Source: Oscillospiraceae bacterium (lineage in GTDB: Bacteria; Bacillota; Clostridia; Oscillospirales; Oscillospiraceae). Taken from it: a stretch of 53,102 nt of DNA. The stretch spans positions 1 to 53,102 of the forward strand of contig JAAWQM010000014.1 in assembly GCA_022800525.1 (NCBI GenBank). The letters run 5' to 3'. The notes under the pieces were generated by a model. It searched no databases, had not been told where the DNA came from, and saw nothing but the letters and a program-made list of their open reading frames with translations. Position 1 is the first letter of the stretch; every line of letters begins with the position of its first letter. Positions 15,328 through 53,102 of this stretch are shown here, in pieces. Position numbers and translations under genes: made by a program.

Positions 15328-16395
15328 ATGAGTATTGATTTTTCCGGGAACAACGCCCCGCTTGTGGAGGAGGAGCCCCTGGTGACCACCAGTCTCACCA
15401 GGGAGGACGAGAACGAGTACTCCCTCCGCCCCAAAACCTTGAAGGAGTATATCGGCCAGGAGAAGGCCAAGGGGAACCTGGAGGTTTTCATCCAGGCTGC
15501 CAAGATGCGGCAGGAGCCGCTGGACCATGTGTTGCTCCACGGTCCTCCGGGCCTGGGCAAGACCACCCTTTCGGGCATCATCGCCAACGAGATGGGGGTC
15601 AATGTGCGGATCACCTCCGGCCCAGCCATTGAAAAAGCGGGAGACCTGGCGGCACTGCTGACCAATCTGAATGAAAACGATATTTTGTTTGTGGACGAAA
15701 TCCACCGGCTCAACCGCTCCGTGGAGGAGGTTCTGTATCCCGCCATGGAGGATTTCGCCATCGACATCATCATCGGCAAGGGACCGTCGGCCAATTCCAT
15801 CCGGCTGGACCTGCCGAAATTCACCCTGATCGGAGCCACCACCCGGGCAGGGCAGTTGTCCGCACCCCTGCGGGACCGCTTCGGCGTGACGTTGCGGCTG
15901 GAGCTGTATACGCCGGAAGAGCTGGCCTTGATTGTCACCCGTTCCGCCGGGATTCTGGACGCGCTCATTGAGCGGGAGGGCGCGATGGAAATTGCCCGCC
16001 GAAGCCGTGGCACGCCAAGGATTGCCAACCGGATGCTGCGGCGGGTGCGGGACTTTGCGCAGGTGGTAGGGGATGGAGTGATCAATAAGGAACTGGCGGA
16101 CAAGGCTCTGACCGCCCTGGAGGTGGACTATCTGGGGCTGGACAACATCGACCGCCGGATGCTGCGGGCGATAATTGAGTACTACAGCGGCGGCCCGGTG
16201 GGACTGGAAACGCTGGCGGCGACGATCAATGAAGAATCGGTGACGCTGGAGGATGTGTATGAGCCGTATCTGCTGCAAATCGGCTTCCTGACCCGGACGC
16301 CGAGAGGCCGGTGTGTGACGCCGAAAGCGTACCAGCATCTGGGCATCGCCGTGCCCGGCGGGATACCGCCTGTGATGGACCAGCTGACATTCTAG
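15328..16395 (+). CDS. ruvB: Holliday junction branch migration ATPase RuvB
   Basis: The AAA+ motor that drives branch migration. The 355-residue protein has [13 protein letters not shown] near 34, Walker [10 protein letters not shown] at 72-80, Walker B FVDEIHRL, sensor [18 protein letters not shown] and the C-terminal winged helix ([14 protein letters not shown]). GAGGAAC precedes the ATG by a few nt. It closes the ruvCAB cluster. Confidence 0.98.
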
Positions 16396-30000: not shown

Positions 30001-30678
30001 GTGAACGATACGGGCAGATATATACGGAATCATTTGTTCAATAAATTTGAGTTTCAAAATTATGGTCACGCTCTGGAAATATTGTACGGCGCATTTCCGG
30101 AGGAGTGGAATGAAATACAGGACTGCTTGGAGAGCATCTCTATTTCTATTGAGGATTTAAAGGCCGCAGGGGGAAATGAGACAGCAATTCCGAAAAAATT
30201 CGATGATGCTTTATACCCTTTGGGGTGGCGTGAAATTAGGATTACGGGGGATTTGCTTGTAAAAATGTATCCCAGGCGGACAAACCAGAGAGGGCGCTTT
30301 GCGGATGAGCCGTACGATGAAAAAATAATCACGGGGTACATTGATGGTCACAATATCGATTTCTTAAAAGGAAAAGTTGCTTTTGATCTGGAGTGGAACA
30401 GTAAAGATCAGACGTTTGATCGTGACCTGCTGGCAATGCGGACGTATTTTGACTGTGGCCTCATTGAAGCTGGAGTTATTGTGACCAGGTCAAGAGAGCT
30501 GAACGACATTTTTCGGGAAGTGCAGGATCAGAACGGAAAGCTGCTGATGGCAAAATATGGAGCCAGCACAACTTGGATGGGAAAGCTGGAGTACAGGCTG
30601 AAATCCCGCAGAAATGGAGGGTGCCCAATCCTGGCTGTCGGTATAAAAAAGTCTTGTGTAGAGGGGTATGGATTGTGA
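30001..30678 (+). CDS. Type II restriction endonuclease, BglII/BstYI-like
   Basis: A 225-residue protein whose core has D120 in the HNID segment and the stretch DLEWNSKDQTFDRDL (E131, N133), matching the PD-(D/E)xK-type active site arrangement of BglII-like enzymes, which cut sites containing GATC. It starts at GTG 30001 after AAGGGGATAGGAAA. The gene is much more AT-rich than rapZ and yvcK around it, and its stop overlaps the start of the methyltransferase gene (GTGA). The pair is a complete type II system by appearance. Recognition of a GATC-containing site is inferred from family only. Confidence 0.82.
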   Translation: MNDTGRYIRNHLFNKFEFQNYGHALEILYGAFPEEWNEIQDCLESISISIEDLKAAGGNETAIPKKFDDALYPLGWREIRITGDLLVKMYPRRTNQRGRFADEPYDEKIITGYIDGHNIDFLKGKVAFDLEWNSKDQTFDRDLLAMRTYFDCGLIEAGVIVTRSRELNDIFREVQDQNGKLLMAKYGASTTWMGKLEYRLKSRRNGGCPILAVGIKKSCVEGYGL

Positions 30679-31316
30679 CAAAGACAGAATTGGAAAGGAC
30701 GATTGGGGATTTCAGACAATATACAGCTGGACAGAAATATAAAACGATTTATGCGGATCCTCCTTGGCAGTTTCAGAACCGAACAGGCAAAGTAGCTCCT
30801 GAGCACAAGCGGTTGTCCAGATACCGCACAATGCAGCTGGATGAGATCAAGGCATTGCCGGTTTCAGAGGTTGCAGATGAAAAGTGCCACCTGTATTTGT
30901 GGGTTCCCAATGCCCTGCTGCCGGAAGGGCTGGAGGTAATGAAAGCATGGGGATTTGAATATAAGACCAATATCATCTGGGAAAAAGTCAGAAAGGATGG
31001 TATGCCGGATGGTAGAGGCGTTGGATTTTATTTCCGAAATGTAACAGAAATGCTTTTGTTTGGAATAAGAGGGGATAAAAACAGGACTTTGGCTGCGGGC
31101 AGGTCGCAGGTCAATCTTATCCGGGCAATAAAGCGTGAACATTCAAGAAAGCCGGATGAATTCTGCTCATTGATTGAGAGCTGCTCGTCTGCGCCTTTTT
31201 TAGAGATTTTTGCAAGAGGGAACCGGGATGGTTGGGATATGTGGGGCGATCAGGCAACTGCGGATTATGAACCGACGTGGAGCACATATTCCAATCATAC
31301 GACCGCTGACAGATAG
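30675..31316 (+). CDS. MT-A70 family DNA adenine methyltransferase
   Basis: A 213-residue N6-adenine methyltransferase. The catalytic motif is DPPW at 28-31 in KTIYADPPWQF; later come LYLWVPNALLPEGLEVMKAWGF and the SAM-binding region near FLEIFARGNRDGW. It starts at GTG 30675 inside the GTGA overlap with the endonuclease gene and ends 7 nt before yvcK. It should protect host DNA from the cognate nuclease. MT-A70 enzymes accompany several type II nucleases; the modification is inferred to be m6A. Confidence 0.88.
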   Translation: MTKTELERTIGDFRQYTAGQKYKTIYADPPWQFQNRTGKVAPEHKRLSRYRTMQLDEIKALPVSEVADEKCHLYLWVPNALLPEGLEVMKAWGFEYKTNIIWEKVRKDGMPDGRGVGFYFRNVTEMLLFGIRGDKNRTLAAGRSQVNLIRAIKREHSRKPDEFCSLIESCSSAPFLEIFARGNRDGWDMWGDQATADYEPTWSTYSNHTTADR

Positions 31317-31323
31317 GATTACT

Positions 31324-32361
31324 ATGAGTGAAACGACATTATATCGCGGTCCCAGCGGGAAGGGGCCGAAAATTGCGGCCATCGGCGGCGGAACTGGGCT
31401 GTCCACTATGCTGCGGGGCCTGAAACGACACACCAACAACCTGACCGCCATCGTCACGGTGGCGGACGACGGGGGCGGCTCCGGCGTGCTGCGGCAGGAG
31501 TTGGGGATGCTGCCGCCGGGGGACGTGCGCAACTGTCTGGAGGCGCTGGCGAATGTGGAGCCCTTGATGGGCGAGCTGCTGCACTACCGGTTCACCGAGG
31601 GTTCGCTGCGGGGACAGAGCTTCGGCAACCTGTTTCTGGCGGCCCTCAACGGCATCTCCGGCGGAAACTTCAATGAGGCGGTCAGCCGCATGAGTCAGGT
31701 TCTGGCCATCACAGGCCGGGTAATCCCGGTGACCAACGCCAACGTACAGCTGGAGGCCGAGCTGGAGAACGGAGCGCGGGTGCTGGGGGAGTCCAAGATT
31801 TTCTACTGCAAGAAGCGGGAGGACTGCCGGGTCCGGCGGGTGCGGCTGCTGCCGGAGTGTCCGCCAGCCGTGGAGTCGGCCCTGGAGGCCATCCGCGAGG
31901 CGGACATGATCCTGCTGGGGCCGGGGAGCCTGTATACCAGCATCATTCCCAATTTGCTGGTGGAGGGCGTGGCGGAGACCATCGCGGAGTCGTCCGCTTT
32001 GAAAATTTACATCGGCAATGTCATGACCCAGGAGGGGGAGACGGAGGGATACACCAATTCGGACCACATCCGGGCTGTCTTCGAGCATTCCCTGCCGGGG
32101 CTGTTCCATTTGTGTCTGGTGAACTCCGCCACCATTCCGGCGGACATTACCGCCCGCTACGCCCAGGAGGGCGCGGAGCCGCTGCGGTTTGATAAGAACG
32201 CCTGCGCGGAGCTGGGGGTCGAGCTGGTCAGCCGCCCGGTGTCCATGGTGCGGGACGGGTATGTGCGCCATGACCCCGAGCTGCTGGCCGCCGCGCTGCT
32301 GGAGCTGCACGCCCAGAGGAGCGTCCGCATCGCCGGACTGGGGCGGTACCGGACGGAGTGA
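31324..32361 (+). CDS. YvcK/CofD-like gluconeogenesis factor
   Basis: A 345-residue protein of the YvcK family, needed in Bacillus for growth on gluconeogenic carbon and for correct cell shape, and thought to bind UDP-sugars. The glycine-rich start IAAIGGGTGLSTMLRGLKRHTNNLTAIVTVADDGGGSG is diagnostic, as are PGDVRNCLEAL and LGPGSLYTSIIPNLLV. The start ATG 31324 lies 7 nt after the methyltransferase stop, so it may be read from the same transcript. In related bacteria it directly follows rapZ. Confidence 0.95.
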   Translation: MSETTLYRGPSGKGPKIAAIGGGTGLSTMLRGLKRHTNNLTAIVTVADDGGGSGVLRQELGMLPPGDVRNCLEALANVEPLMGELLHYRFTEGSLRGQSFGNLFLAALNGISGGNFNEAVSRMSQVLAITGRVIPVTNANVQLEAELENGARVLGESKIFYCKKREDCRVRRVRLLPECPPAVESALEAIREADMILLGPGSLYTSIIPNLLVEGVAETIAESSALKIYIGNVMTQEGETEGYTNSDHIRAVFEHSLPGLFHLCLVNSATIPADITARYAQEGAEPLRFDKNACAELGVELVSRPVSMVRDGYVRHDPELLAAALLELHAQRSVRIAGLGRYRTE

Positions 32362-32473
32362 GCGGGGCAGACCGCAGGTCTGCCGGGACCGGTCATTGGG
32401 CCGCAGGCACAATGACGGTCCCCATCCCTGTTGATTCGTGTTGCCGCTGCCGCGGTTCTGCCCTTTGGTTTGC

Positions 32474-32492
32474 GGGCGAGCAATGCTCGCCC
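32474..32492. repeat. Palindrome after yvcK
   Basis: GGGCGAGCAATGCTCGCCC followed by CCTACATGG. Related in form to the REP-like GGGCGGAT palindromes but with a different core. Confidence 0.6.
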
Positions 32493-32542
32493 CTACATGG
32501 ATTCTGCGATTTTGAGGATTGCGCCTCAGAAATGGATGGCCG

Positions 32543-32761
32543 TCAGTTTTGACAGGCGGTGCTGAGTCCCGCGCCGGTGCGTAGGCCCAGCAGGAAGGCG
32601 TTGACGGCGTAGAACTCCAGCAAGCGTTCAATGTCCCGGCGCTGTTCGGGCATCAGGTCTATGGCAAGCACGTCAAGAGGCTGCTCATATCCGGTGCGGT
32701 CCTGGTGTTCAATGTGGGGCTTGATGTAGTTGGCGTACAGCCAGCGAGTAAAGTCTGTCAT
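32543..32761 (-). CDS. Small helical partner protein with FLLGLRTGA motif (module 1)
   Basis: A 72-residue protein I cannot assign to a family. It contains PHIE near residue 14 and ends in a helix with LLEFYAVNAFLLGLRTGAGL. A clear relative is encoded at 51107-51331, also divergent from an XRE gene. AAAGGAA precedes the ATG at 32761. Its promoter (TTGACA-17-TACACT) has one of two identical operators as its spacer, so it is very likely repressed by the XRE protein encoded opposite. A toxin, anti-regulator or signalling peptide role is possible but not shown by the sequence. Confidence 0.75.
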   Translation of the reverse strand: MTDFTRWLYANYIKPHIEHQDRTGYEQPLDVLAIDLMPEQRRDIERLLEFYAVNAFLLGLRTGAGLSTACQN

Positions 32762-32788
32762 TTCAATTTGTTCCTTTCTTTTTAGATG

Positions 32789-32849
32789 TTGAAAACACGA
32801 ACTATAGGGTGTATACTGTAAGTGTAACACGAACTATAGGGTATGTCAA
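32789..32849. promoter_or_regulatory. Overlapping divergent promoters, each with a 16-bp operator as spacer
   Basis: ACACGAACTATAGGGT occurs exactly at 32795-32810 and 32827-32842, 32 bp apart. The rightward promoter for the XRE gene is TTGAAA (32789-32794) - 17 nt - TATACT (32812-32817), and its spacer is copy 1. The leftward promoter for the small gene is TTGACA (32849-32844) - 17 nt - TACACT (32826-32821), and its spacer is copy 2. The core CTATAG with flanking ACAC/GTGT makes each copy partly palindromic. Confidence 0.88.
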
Positions 32850-32858
32850 GGGGTAATT

Positions 32859-33077
32859 ATGGCGCTTAATGAACTTTTTAAGAAAAGACTGCGTGAACTT
32901 CGGAAAGAAACGAAGGAAACGCAGGTTCAGGTTGCACAGGCGATAGGAACAACTGGCCGGTATTATCAGAAGCTGGAAGCAGGAGAAAGCCTGCCAGGAT
33001 TGGAGTATTGCTGCGCTTTAGCTGACCATTTTGGCGTGACGATTGATTATTTGGCGGGCCGTACAGACGAGAGGTAA
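32859..33077 (+). CDS. Single-domain XRE regulator (module 1)
   Basis: A 72-residue Cro/C1-type HTH protein: FKKRLRELRKETKETQVQVAQAI, then TTGRYYQKLEAGESLPGLEYCCALADHFGVTIDYLAGRTDER. It consists of the HTH domain only. AAGGGGTAATT precedes the ATG, a leader shared with the XRE genes at 33169 and 50779. Overlapping divergent promoters with two operators indicate autoregulation and control of the divergent small gene. Confidence 0.92.
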   Translation: MALNELFKKRLRELRKETKETQVQVAQAIGTTGRYYQKLEAGESLPGLEYCCALADHFGVTIDYLAGRTDER

Positions 33078-33102
33078 AGCAGTATGTATTCGTTTGAAGT
33101 GG

Positions 33103-33153
33103 ACGTAGATTTCTGCGTCTTCTGCCTGTATACTAACACGTAGATTTCTACAT
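33103..33153 (+). promoter_or_regulatory. Promoter region with two operator copies for the solo XRE gene
   Basis: ACGTAGATTTCTGCGT (33103-33118) and ACGTAGATTTCTACAT (33138-33153) are near-identical dyads (ACGTAGA-TT-TCTACGT type), 35 bp apart, on either side of a TATACT -10 at 33129-33134. No good -35 is visible, so the promoter may be weak or the first dyad may replace it. Confidence 0.7.
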
Positions 33154-33168
33154 ATCAAGGGGTGCTTT

Positions 33169-33387
33169 ATGGTTACAAAGGATTTTTTCAAGGCACGGCT
33201 GCGTCAATTGCGCAAAGAGCGGGGAGAGACACAGGTACAAGTAAGCGAGGCTACAGGAATTGGAGAACGGCATTATCAAAAATTTGAAGCAGGCGATAAT
33301 TTTCCGAATGTAGAGAACTTATGTGCGCTGGCAGATCATTTTGAGGTCAGTGTAGATTATCTGTTGGGCCGTACGGAAGAGAAGTAA
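33169..33387 (+). CDS. Single-domain XRE regulator, solo copy
   Basis: A 72-residue paralogue of the gene at 32859: FKARLRQLRKERGETQVQVSEATGIGERHYQKFEAGDNFPNVENLCALADHFEVSVDYLLGRTEEK. AAGGGGTGCTTT precedes the ATG. It has its own operator type (ACGTAGA dyads) but no small partner gene nearby. It lies 15 nt before whiA and may be co-transcribed with it, which would link whiA expression to this operator. Confidence 0.9.
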   Translation: MVTKDFFKARLRQLRKERGETQVQVSEATGIGERHYQKFEAGDNFPNVENLCALADHFEVSVDYLLGRTEEK

Positions 33388-33402
33388 ATGGAGTAAACGA
33401 CA

Positions 33403-34296
33403 ATGTCTTTTTCCAGCGATGTCAAAAGTGAATTGTGTGAAATTGCCCTGGACCCGCTCTGCTGCATCCGGGCGGAGGTTTATGGAGCGCTGCTGTATGG
33501 AAACACATTTTCCACCCATGAGGTGCGGCTGATTACAGAGAGCGAGGCGTTTGCCCGGCGGCTTCCGGCTCTGCTGGGGCGGGCGTTCGGGCTGGCCTTC
33601 GACCGTTTGCCGGGGGAGGGAGAGCGGAAATATGTTTTCCAGCTGAACAACCGGGAGAAGATCGGTAAGATGATTGACGCGTTTGGATTTGATTCCCGGC
33701 AGAGCCCGGTTCTGCATATCAACTTCGGGTTGCTGGAGGACGACTGCTGCCGGGCTGCGTTCCTGCGTGGAGCGTTCCTGGCGGGCGGCAGCGTGACGGA
33801 GCCGTCGAAGCGGTACCACCTGGAGCTGGTAACCAGCCACGCCCAGGCCAGCCGGGAGATGCTGGCGCTGCTGACGGACATGGGCCGTCAGCCGGGACAG
33901 GCTGTCCGGGGCGGGTGTCAGGTGACTTACTTCAAGAGTGGGGAGCAGATTGCGGAGCTTCTGACTTTGATGGGTGCAGGCAGGTCGGCGGCGGCCCTGA
34001 TGGACGCACGGGCGGAAAAGAATCTGCGCAACGGCGTAAACCGTCAGGTGAACTGCGAGGCGGCGAACCTGGATAAAGCGGTCAATGCGGCGCAGGAGCA
34101 GCTGGAGGCCATCCGGCGGCTGTACGAGCTGGACAGGGTGGAGGGGCTGACGGCGCAGCTGAAGGAGACCATCATTTTGCGGGAGACATATCCGGAGCTG
34201 ACGCTGAGCCAGCTTGCGGAGGAGTTTGAGCCGCCGATTACAAAGAGCTGTCTGAACCACCGGCTGCGGAAGCTGGTGGAGCTGAGCAGGGCATAA
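33403..34296 (+). CDS. whiA: DNA-binding protein WhiA
   Basis: A 297-residue WhiA: an N-terminal LAGLIDADG-like domain (starting SFSSDVKSELCEI, with AAFLRGAFLAGGSV) and a C-terminal HTH (LKETIILRETYPELTLSQLAEEF, SCLNHRLRKL). WhiA affects cell division and chromosome segregation in Firmicutes and sporulation in Actinobacteria. It is the third member of the normally contiguous rapZ-yvcK-whiA block. Confidence 0.95.
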   Translation: MSFSSDVKSELCEIALDPLCCIRAEVYGALLYGNTFSTHEVRLITESEAFARRLPALLGRAFGLAFDRLPGEGERKYVFQLNNREKIGKMIDAFGFDSRQSPVLHINFGLLEDDCCRAAFLRGAFLAGGSVTEPSKRYHLELVTSHAQASREMLALLTDMGRQPGQAVRGGCQVTYFKSGEQIAELLTLMGAGRSAAALMDARAEKNLRNGVNRQVNCEAANLDKAVNAAQEQLEAIRRLYELDRVEGLTAQLKETIILRETYPELTLSQLAEEFEPPITKSCLNHRLRKLVELSRA

Positions 34297-49867: not shown

Positions 49868-50776
49868 TTAAACAGGGTTTTCCAAATTTTTTTTGCCTTC
49901 CGGGAACGGCGGGGCAGGCTGGCAGAGAAATACGGCGGGATACTGCCCGGACAGCGCCCCGGCGGCAGTCTCCGCCGCCGCCTTCTCCCGGAACAGGCCG
50001 AACACCGCCGGTCCGCTGCCTGTCATGGAGGCCGTCATGGCCCCCAGCTCCAGAAGCAGGCTTTTGATTTCGAACACCTGGGCGTACCGCCGGGGCAGCA
50101 CGTCCTCGAAGACGTTATACATTCTCCGCGCGGCGCCCTCCAGGTCCCCGTGCTCCAGGGCCGCCAGCAGTCCGGCGGTGTCCGGATGGCACCGCAGCTT
50201 CCTGACCCGCACCTGGGCGAACAGCTCCGGCGTGGAGATGGAGCAGGCGGGCTTGCAGACCACGAACCAGCAGGGGGGGAGTCCCGGCAGGCTGGTCATT
50301 TTCTCGCCGCGCCCCTCGGCCAGGACAGTACCGCCCCGGATGCAGTAAGGGACGTCGCTGCCCACCAGCGCGCCGATTTCCTCCAGCCTGCTGTCCGGCA
50401 GCTGCGGCGCGTAGGCCCGCCGCAGCACCCGCAGGACCGCCGCGCCGTCGCTGCTGCCTCCGGCCATTCCGGCGCAGACCGGAATCCGTTTGTGGATGCG
50501 TACCGACAGCCCGGCGGGGGGCAGGCCGGTCTGCTCAAAGAAACGGCTGGCCGCCTTATGGGCGATATTGCCCTCGCCCCGGGGGAGGTAGGGCAGATCG
50601 GCGGACACATGGAAGCCAGGCTCCGGCGAGCCGGAGATATTCACCTCGTCCGCCAGGTCGATGGACTGCATCACCATCCGCATTTCGTGGTAGCCGTCCG
50701 GGCGTTTGCCCAGAATGTCCAGGGTCAGATTCAGTTTTGCGCAGGCGGGTTCGGTGTAGTCCATGACCTGATCCAT
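49868..50776 (-). CDS. ispE: 4-diphosphocytidyl-2-C-methyl-D-erythritol kinase
   Basis: GHMP kinase of the MEP isoprenoid pathway, 302 residues. Motifs: ACAKLNLTLDILGKRPDGYHEM at the start, the ATP loop IPVCAGMAGGSSDGAAVLRVL near 98-118, and the C-terminal TASMTGSGPAVFGLF. AAAGGAAGAATAAGG precedes ATG 50776, which lies 2 nt after the stop of the XRE gene; that stop codon is part of the spacer, so the two are tightly coupled. This puts an essential pathway gene downstream of a module regulator. Confidence 0.95.
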   Translation of the reverse strand: MDQVMDYTEPACAKLNLTLDILGKRPDGYHEMRMVMQSIDLADEVNISGSPEPGFHVSADLPYLPRGEGNIAHKAASRFFEQTGLPPAGLSVRIHKRIPVCAGMAGGSSDGAAVLRVLRRAYAPQLPDSRLEEIGALVGSDVPYCIRGGTVLAEGRGEKMTSLPGLPPCWFVVCKPACSISTPELFAQVRVRKLRCHPDTAGLLAALEHGDLEGAARRMYNVFEDVLPRRYAQVFEIKSLLLELGAMTASMTGSGPAVFGLFREKAAAETAAGALSGQYPAVFLCQPAPPFPEGKKNLENPV

Positions 50777-50778
50777 CC

Positions 50779-51012
50779 TTATTCTTCCTTTGCGCCCCGG
50801 TCCACTGTGCGGCCCGCCAGATAGTCCAGGGATACGTTGAAGTGGTCCGCAAGGGCGATGAAATTTTCCAGGCTGGGCAGATTGTCGCCGGATTCAAATT
50901 TCTGATAATGCTGTCTTGGCACGCCAAGACCATCCGCTACCTGCTGTTGTGTTTCGTGACACGCTTTGCGTGTTTCACGAAGCCGGGCGGGGAAAAAAGC
51001 GCGAAATTCCAT
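50779..51012 (-). CDS. Single-domain XRE regulator (module 2)
   Basis: A 77-residue Cro/C1-type HTH protein: FFPARLRETRKACHETQQQVADGLGVPRQHYQKFESGDNLPSLENFIALADHFNVSLDYLAGRTVDRGAKEE, a close paralogue of the genes at 32859 and 33169. AAGGGGTAGTT precedes ATG 51012, the same leader as in the other two. It is divergent from a relative of the module 1 small gene and directly upstream of ispE. Confidence 0.92.
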   Translation of the reverse strand: MEFRAFFPARLRETRKACHETQQQVADGLGVPRQHYQKFESGDNLPSLENFIALADHFNVSLDYLAGRTVDRGAKEE

Positions 51013-51021
51013 AACTACCCC

Positions 51022-51079
51022 TTGGCGCAACGAAAATTATGCGTTATAATAGCGCTGCTTACAACGAACTTTATGCAAA
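51022..51079. promoter_or_regulatory. Module 2 control region with two operator-like repeats
   Basis: CAACGAAAATTATGCG (51028-51043) and CAACGAACTTTATGCA (51062-51077) are direct repeats 34 bp apart. The first fills exactly the 17-nt spacer of the rightward promoter TTGGCG (51022-51027) - TATAAT (51045-51050). The second lies after the start site and near where the XRE promoter should be; no good leftward boxes are visible. Confidence 0.78.
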
Positions 51080-51106
51080 ACTATATCACAGAAAGGAAAA
51101 AAGACA

Positions 51107-51331
51107 ATGAATGCAATTATAGAAATACTGAGCACAGCCTGCACCACGCCGCATATAGAAGATGATGAAGAATATATGGCGTGTCTTTCGGCGTTTTTAT
51201 AAGAAATGGCAACCAAGCAGAAGGACCAGTGTGCGCGGGTGCTGGAGCTGTGCGCCAGCAAGTCATTTCTGTTGGGAATGCGAACCGGCGCGGAACTGGA
51301 ACGCTTCCTCAATCAGGACGAGGCCGGATAA
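51107..51331 (+). pseudogene. FLLG-RTGA partner gene of module 2 with an in-frame stop
   Basis: Starting at ATG 51107 (GAAAGGA upstream) the frame encodes MNAIIEILSTACTTPHIEDD and so on for 31 codons, meets TAA at 51200-51202, and continues in the same frame with EMATKQKDQCARVLELCASK then SFLLGMRTGAELERFL to a stop at 51329-51331. The part after the stop carries the motif shared with the gene at 32543. An ATG at 51206 could restart translation. Either the gene is inactivated by a single nonsense change, or two short peptides are made. The total length (75 codons) matches the intact relative. Confidence 0.75.
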
Positions 51332-52765: not shown

Positions 52766-53102
52766 TTATTGCGCTTGCTCCAGGCGAGTCAGCCGGTCGG
52801 ATAAAGAGACAATGAGAGTTCTCATGAAAGCCACATCACCTTCTAAAGATTCAACCCGGTCCTTGGGGGCCAAAGTTTCTTCCAGATGCTTATGGCCCTC
52901 GCCTAGCAGACGAAGCTGCGGCAGGACAAAGTTTTCCTGGGTGACAGCAACTCTGGTCAGAGTCTCCTGCATGGAAGAGACGTCCTCCTTGAGACCGGAG
53001 GCATCCTCCTTGAGACCGGAGACGTCCTCCTTGAGTCTGGAGACGTCCTCCTTGAGACCGGAGACGTCCTCCTTGAGACCGGAGACGTCCTCCTTGAGAC
53101 CG
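52766..53102 (-). CDS. Heptad-repeat coiled-coil protein, 5' end outside the window
   Basis: The open frame continues to the window edge on the minus strand. The last 68 residues (from M at 52972) are MQETLTRVAVTQENFVLPQL and a helical tail ending in LSDRLTRLEQAQ. Before this the frame repeats the heptad GLKEDVS at least six times, placing Val and Leu at core positions a and d and Lys/Asp at e and g, an ideal coiled coil. The true start lies outside. Similar tails occur in clostridial proteins of unknown function; no domain with a known activity is visible. Confidence 0.8.
   Translation of the reverse strand, partial: GLKEDVSGLKEDVSGLKEDVSRLKEDVSGLKEDASGLKEDVSSMQETLTRVAVTQENFVLPQLRLLGEGHKHLEETLAPKDRVESLEGDVAFMRTLIVSLSDRLTRLEQAQ
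52976..53102. repeat. 21-bp tandem repeat coding for heptads
   Basis: The unit GAGACCGGAGACGTCCTCCTT (plus-strand reading, 21 bp) is repeated about six times up to the window end with one or two substitutions per unit, e.g. GTCTGG for GACCGG and GGCATC for GACGTC. Each unit encodes one heptad, so copy number can change without breaking the frame. Confidence 0.92.

Follow-up and report, generated by a model that had tools for sequence, protein, structure and literature searches.

Gene organization of the locus

The window, that is, the whole analysed stretch of 53,102 nucleotides from an Oscillospiraceae bacterium (contig JAAWQM010000014.1), carries between yvcK and whiA a module of one small gene and two regulators (Table 1). 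The small gene is divergent from XRE1, as a preliminary description of this DNA had stated for two 72-residue ORFs, and 97 bp separate them. A second tandem XRE, absent from that description, ends 15 bp upstream of whiA. The upstream CofD-family gene is one that we take to be yvcK, from gene order and general knowledge. XRE1 matched Pfam HTH_3 with E 1.4e-11, and all three XREs of the window passed the HTH_3 (PF01381) gathering cut-off, with 44.7, 43.6 and 54.9 bits against 23; in PADLOC they matched only HTH-bearing models, such as capH and RmrA.

Two further genes lie between rapZ and yvcK, within positions 30001-31316, and encode a BglII-type restriction endonuclease (PF09195, E 5.6e-40) and an MT-A70 methyltransferase (E 2.1e-33). 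They represent a second insertion in the same core operon as the module. An ORF at 52766-53102, which runs off the end of the window, contains tandem LKEDVSG-type repeats.

Table 1. Genes and predicted signals of the two module copies in the window
Feature	Position	Strand	Basis
yvcK-like gene (CofD family), upstream host gene	31210..32361	+	CofD family match
Small protein gene, 72 aa, motif FLLGLRTGAGL	32543..32761	-	ORF call and sequence
Possible XRE1 promoter, TTGAAA-17-TATACT	32789..32817	+	Promoter scoring
Predicted operator copy 1, CACGAACTATAGGG core	32796..32813		16/18 identical to copy 2
Promoter-like site of the small gene, TTGACA (32849-32844), 17 bp, TACACT (32826-32821)	32821..32849	-	
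Predicted operator copy 2	32828..32845		
XRE1 ribosome-binding site AAGGGG, overlapping the small-gene -35 box	32848..32853	+	Sequence
XRE1, 72 aa, single-domain HTH_3 regulator adjoining the small gene	32859..33077	+	ORF call and Pfam
Promoter-like site before XRE2, TTGATA-17-TAGTAT, antisense into XRE1	33130..33158	-	
XRE2, second tandem XRE	33169..33387	+	Pfam
whiA, downstream host gene	33403..34296	+	NCBIfam TIGR00647
GHMP-kinase gene read as ispE	49868..50776	-	Likeness to the L031 gene, named ispE by NCBIfam
Second-copy XRE, open, directly upstream of the ispE-like gene	50779..51012	-	Pfam
Second-copy promoter-like site of the small gene, TTGGCG-17-TATAAT	51022..51050	+	Sequence
Second-copy small gene, fragment 1, 31 aa, ending at an in-frame TAA (51200-51202)	51107..51202	+	Sequence
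Second-copy small gene, fragment 2, 41-aa ORF with FLLGMRTGAE	51206..51331	+	ORF call and family search

The recurrence of the pair at 50779-51331, reported earlier, holds for the arrangement and for the XRE, which is open; the small ORF, as assembled, is damaged, since one in-frame TAA divides it into 31 and 41 codons. Its -35 box is TTGGCG, compared with TTGACA in the first copy. A third copy, likewise with two XREs, was found on contig C15, and a fourth, more distant one (E 1.2e-8) with a divergent XRE on C4.

Promoters and operators

Promoter and operator statistics were obtained from 63 non-redundant intergenic regions. In 59 of the 63 a promoter towards the small gene scored no lower than the 95th percentile of shuffles, 14 regions having a perfect TTGACA-17-TATAAT. 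Towards the XRE this level was reached in 18 of 63 regions (about 3 expected), which makes self-transcription of the XRE possible. The 18-mer before the TCAAG-type motif, which adjoins the XRE start, has an upstream operator partner that is identical on average at 12.6 of 18 positions within its own region, against 9.4 with the regions of other modules and 8.7 with shuffles. The copies exceeded the shuffle 95th percentile in 55/63 regions and were spaced by 26-38 bp in 60/63; the TCAAG motif served as the anchor for copy 2, whose position beside the -35 box is therefore partly by construction. TGTCAAGG, which commonly precedes the XRE, is a -35 box in reverse complement. The AAGGGGT leader of the preliminary description is present and overlaps the small-gene TTGACA box, and the best explanation for it is the ribosome-binding site of the XRE.

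One predicted operator is placed in the spacer between the -35 and -10 boxes and the other just beyond the -10 box. Because two matching copies sit on the small-gene promoter, in the position expected for a repressor, the XRE most likely represses the small gene; it is their position that suggests a repressor rather than an activator. At the first copy in the window, promoters in both directions score 10/12, and no terminator-like site was found within 32250-33450, where 1.1 would be expected by chance, so the XRE could be supplied by read-through from yvcK, by its own promoter, or by both. No small gene was recognised behind the promoter-like site before XRE2.

A DNA signature combining promoter and ribosome-binding site was tried as a module finder. 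It occurred at 63 places in the genome versus 1 in a reversed control, few of them at modules, and is read as a general promoter signature.

The small-protein family

The window small protein had no match in Pfam (up to E 10), NCBIfam or PHROGs, and matched none of the families among the PADLOC models. The PDB sequence search returned no relative (best E 0.57; 0.12 with the DUF6809 alignment), and the PDB fold search with the predicted structure gave nothing at E 0.001 or better, with one match at E 9.9. A match to the Tsi6 immunity protein (E 0.67) was read as chance. The earlier assignment to no known family is therefore nearly right, the remote similarity to DUF6809 described below being the sole qualification.

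With the protein as query (E 0.01), 14 of 99 genomes matched, its own included, all of them from the same genus; these comprise 13 of the 24 other genus members. With the family alignment, matches were found in 4 of 295 genomes of the order, again including its own and all from the same family. A collection of genome contigs yielded 54 loci, whose titles name Oscillospiraceae, Oscillibacter, Dysosmobacter, Intestinimonas or uncultured Clostridia; Oscillibacter valericigenes An411 and Oscillibacter sp. 1-3 each carry a module. In the collections searched, the family is confined to Oscillospiraceae-type genomes.

Residues invariant in 51 family sequences include F4, W7, L8, Y12, P15, F56, G59 and L66. 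FLLG(L)RTGA, pointed out earlier, is indeed a family motif; of the PHIE sequence proposed along with it, the P alone is invariant across the family. The AlphaFold2 model is predicted with mean pLDDT 87 and pTM 0.68 and has helices at residues 3-18, 26-35, 38-62 and 66-70. Over its first 66 codons the small gene had a dN/dS of 0.04-0.35 in 18 of 19 pairs that we chose; the sole exception (0.60, L022/L025) comes from the ispE site, where the damaged copy of the window is also found. At the hflX site the 3' end of hflX, read antisense, codes for the C-terminal tail of the small protein (..SFGSTQPSI or the like), so that the host gene supplies part of the protein (L027, L028, L034, L035, L038, L042 and L077).

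Pairing with the regulator

A divergent XRE was found beside 84 of the 85 ORFs that match the family HMM, a redundant set in which many modules were fetched twice or more, mostly with 78-106 bp between domain starts; the distance is wider in L047 and in the second-copy fragment. L064, the lone case without a recognised XRE, has a different short ORF, of 55 aa and with no match in Pfam, where the XRE would lie. Because so nearly all family ORFs carry the divergent XRE, the pairing is not chance, and the small protein was not found widely apart from such a gene. The preliminary description had proposed a mobile or selectively kept unit. The latter agrees with the near-constant XRE neighbour, the low dN/dS in 18/19 chosen pairs and the presence or absence of the module at one operon junction in sister genomes. 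An association with phage or mobile regions found no such backing: viral contigs gave no confirmed match and phages and plasmids none at all, and those neighbours that could be named are core genes.

Insertion sites in core operons

Flanking genes were identified by tblastn with proteins from these loci and from the window, and NCBIfam supplied the names of representatives. A module received a site label when any gene of that site was found nearby, so that some modules show one flank. Among 60 modules, 19 are at hflX|yigZ, 10 at ybeY|era, 6 at DUF1015|ispE (one of them DUF1015|pckA), 5 each at yvcK|whiA and ruvB|glmM, 4 at nusB|xseA, 3 at uvrA, 2 at queA|tgt, 2 at an aspartate kinase gene (upstream of L066 and L078, named by NCBIfam) and 1 each at gyrB|gyrA, guaA, lepA and tsaD; the names uvrA and tsaD are our assumption.

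The XRE is co-directional with both flanks in 44 of 44 modules with both identified, at 8 of 8 distinct sites (random expectation 0.39). For single flanks, tblastn gave 52/52 co-directional upstream genes and 50/51 downstream genes, with tsaD as the exception. Counts from gene prediction (38/39 upstream, 42/45 downstream, 30/31 for both) hold minus-strand calls that resemble antisense artefacts (L032, L062), and the tblastn counts were used instead. The XRE lies upstream of co-directional host genes, often with few bases between, and the small ORF overlaps the 3' ends of host genes at several sites.

A search of the genus detected whiA in 23 of 25 genomes. Both the yvcK and whiA ORFs were recognised in 12 of 24 fetched loci, 5 with the module (G000, G002, G005, G010 and G022) and 7 without it; in the latter, the genes are 15 bp apart in G007 and 35 bp in G019. 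L168 and L169, in which whiA is cut, are left out of the yvcK|whiA count. In the window, no module was predicted between the ruvB-like (15328-16395) and glmM-like (from 16856) genes, which were named by eye. In the sister genomes L159 and L161, the yvcK-whiA gap contains a different short, cysteine-rich ORF that is bordered, by eye, by GCGAAAC/GTTTCGC words, and the junction seems to accept other inserts.

Exchange of regulators and tandem arrays

Small proteins at least 75% identical occur in 24 module pairs, and in 17 of these the HTH regions of the XREs are less than 65% identical. In the 17 swapped pairs, 12 of which are at one and the same site, mean identity is 0.46 in the HTH region and 0.84 in the C-terminal part. 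L019 and L020 (hflX) share 99% identity in the small protein and 68% in the XRE, and L039 and L041 (nusB) 99% and 65%, with different operators in both cases. In L038 and L042, identity is 95-100% through the small gene, falls to 55-73% across the operators and roughly the initial two thirds of the XRE, and returns to 87-100% past the divergent block, a sharp block replacement. These comparisons show that the DNA-reading half of the XRE and the predicted operators are exchanged between relatives, the small protein being constant. Small-protein and XRE identities are weakly correlated (rho 0.26), and for each of the two proteins 38 of 56 nearest relatives share the insertion site.

Tandem arrays contain regulators related to those of other modules. 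The last of three XREs in L039 matches the single one of L041; L075 and L047 have two each, the first similar to that of L065 and the second to those of L069 and L043. At yvcK|whiA, XRE2 of the window shares 80% identity with the G005 XRE proximal to the small gene, while the second XRE of G005 has 89% identity with the one XRE present in G002. Relic small-gene starts precede the distal XRE in the arrays of L051 (MSDFMKWL-stop) and L075 (FMLWLY), with a possible one in L006. It may be that successive modules were placed beside the small gene and the older XRE was pushed away, an order that we infer from these arrays.

A divergent promoter-like site scoring at least 11 is kept in just 5 of 11 gaps in 9 arrays. 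Such sites (33130-33158 in the window and the gaps of L004, L006, L051 and L075) point antisense through the proximal XRE towards the small gene, and they could possibly constitute an OR-gate.

Correspondence of recognition helix and operator

The predicted operators differ between modules and follow the recognition helix of the XRE. Where the helix reads TSRQYQG or TVRQYQG (L039, L053, L056 and L073), one or both operator copies contain CGAAAnnnnTTTCG, and such operators occur at three different sites (nusB, hflX and ruvB). GERPYQY or RERPYQY helices are accompanied by CGCTynnnnrAGCG operators (L049, L059 and L067).

The covariation analysis used 54 modules, after removal of 7 of the 63 and merging of near-duplicates that were more than 92% identical. 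The partial correlation between operator similarity and 10-residue XRE windows, holding XRE identity elsewhere constant and with relatedness staying in the test, was 0.13-0.29 for windows starting at residues 20-43, 0.11-0.21 at 9-19 and near 0 at 50-56, and the peak was just behind helix 3. The helix-3 window alone gave r 0.164, compared with a maximum of 0.155 in 1000 permutations that ignore relatedness. Pairs with helix 3 at least 80% identical (97 pairs) had a mean operator similarity of 12.5/18, against 10.6 in 239 control pairs, in which the remaining XRE identity was slightly lower (0.68, compared with 0.73). A per-position covariation was discarded, being dominated by one XRE subgroup.

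Relation to DUF6809

In a single hhalign comparison, the small-protein family matched Pfam DUF6809 (PF20648), of unknown function, with probability 87 and E 3.7e-6, collinear over the whole length; a repeat profile-profile comparison gave E 2.7e-6 and probability 88.5. The two are similar in length and share end motifs (..LY near the start and F..GfrLG..L near the end). The window protein itself did not reach the DUF6809 gathering cut-off, with no match up to E 10. A Pfam scan matched DUF6809 in 3 of 23 family members and in 2 of 51 in a larger set, the best E, 0.014, being no better than those of the unrelated families CARDS_D3 (0.012) and DUF6694 (0.015). In the reverse direction, the DUF6809 protein of L117 matched the family HMM at 2e-4 in a small ORF set.

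The genome of the window has 7 places that match DUF6809 at E 0.01, 5 of them divergent from an XRE 85-134 bp away; one, on C11, is above the Pfam cut-off (32.3 vs 27). An XRE was found in 15 of 30 fetched DUF6809 loci, which are the best per genome plus one extra, with over 100 further matches beyond them. In each of the 13 DUF6809-XRE regions examined, 76-105 bp separate the two genes, which are divergent; the promoter in the small-gene direction was at or above the shuffle 95th percentile in 13/13 (12 with TTGACA or TTGATA) and that in the XRE direction in 5/13. The highest-scoring loci (L117-L126) had no XRE in the fetched stretch. Among six of these loci that were viewed gene by gene, some had neighbours that we took to be recombinase- or relaxosome-like. 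Since the profile match and, in this genus, the divergent XRE context are shared, the small protein may be a remote relative of DUF6809, and the window pair is probably one branch of a wider kind formed by an XRE and a DUF6809-like protein. No paper on DUF6809 was found in the open PMC literature, and no description of the present modules was recognised in the literature search.

Comparison with known systems

In lambdoid phages, exchange of the immunity region changes the repressor and its operators together and leaves neighbouring genes constant. The modules resemble this in the swap of repressor and operators beside constant genes and differ in their setting, which is chromosomal core operons, and in having a single small gene as their output.

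The XRE-DUF397 pairs of Streptomyces (Scr1/Scr2 and the WhiJ/BldB paralogues), according to PMC10364602 and PMC10294661, are present as many paralogous pairs per genome and were once proposed as toxin-antitoxin systems. The modules are likewise paralogous pairs of an XRE and a small protein, several per genome; DUF397, however, is downstream of its XRE and not divergent, whereas the modules are found inside core operons. No Pfam match to DUF397 was obtained for the small family, and the domain is absent from the listed family tallies.

Vibrio phage TF-smORF modules (PMC10432266) are carried by prophages and consist of a transcription factor divergent from a small-protein gene, which the factor activates; promoter specificity is private to each module, and small proteins that inactivate a repressor are known. 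The divergent layout and, as predicted from the operators, the private specificity are the same here; by contrast, the present modules have putative repression, core-gene flanks and no viral or phage match found.

Proposed function and alternatives

We propose, and consider rather probable, that the module is a regulatory cassette embedded in core operons, in which the XRE silences the divergent small gene. The XRE, made by read-through of the host operon, from a weak back-to-back promoter, or by both, would bind two private operator copies over the small-gene promoter and keep that gene off. When the XRE falls or is inactivated, the small all-helical protein would be made, and its transcript, given the layout, would extend in antisense into the host gene upstream, at its 3' end. 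Tandem XREs would displace one another beside the small gene. For the small protein, a normally silent effector is the role that we favour most, tentatively.

A less probable role is that of an anti-repressor or co-regulator of the XRE, acting on its conserved C-terminal half, with the downstream host gene as the real output. The position of the XRE a few bases upstream of co-directional host genes fits this role, as does the conservation of that half in swapped pairs, and repressor-inactivating small proteins are described for phage TF-smORF modules (PMC10432266); the weak co-variation of the small protein and the XRE argues against it. The same C-terminal half could be a binding surface in a type II toxin-antitoxin system, where the small protein would be a toxin that its own XRE binds directly and so neutralises; a toxin-antitoxin-like module was one example given in the preliminary description. 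A small partner, an HTH partner, several copies per genome and autoregulatory-looking operators are in keeping with such a system, which we nevertheless regard as improbable. The genes are divergent and not co-transcribed (84/85 ORFs, redundant set), small-protein and XRE identities go together weakly, and a dedicated pair is disfavoured because near-identical small proteins occur with swapped XREs, as in L019/L020 and L039/L041.

About as improbable is a selfish insertion of no benefit to the host, which would persist through its location in core operons and in which the swaps would be recombination between similar sequences. Occupied and empty yvcK|whiA junctions in sister genomes, the strict co-direction with the flanks and the damaged copy at ispE are what such an insertion would produce. 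It accords poorly with the low dN/dS of the small gene, with operators and recognition helices that change together and with nearest identified flanking genes that include no mobility gene. The promoter that points at the host-gene 3' end, and the overlap of the small ORF with such ends at several sites, would also suit a non-coding ORF, what is conserved being an antisense transcript that acts on the host gene upstream; given dN/dS of 0.04-0.35 in 18 of 19 chosen pairs, a confident helical model and invariant residues, we give this very little credence.

Returning to the repressed cassette, a more speculative scheme, which we regard as doubtful, is that core operons of these bacteria hold a silent effector whose repressor specificity is repeatedly replaced by arriving and stacking XRE-operator cassettes, in order to insulate the copies from paralogues or foreign repressors. 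A repressor fed by the host operon would then be a tripwire for failing core transcription, and the whole a chromosomal counterpart of phage immunity exchange.

The regulators sit in core operons, at recurrent junctions and always in the same orientation where both flanks are identified. DUF6809-like small proteins gain a genomic context, a divergent XRE partner. The modules offer numerous natural pairs of repressor and operator that share one fold and differ in specificity, a directly testable recognition code and a source of orthogonal switches. Should the small protein prove toxic or growth-regulating, the core operons of these bacteria would hold a hidden switch.
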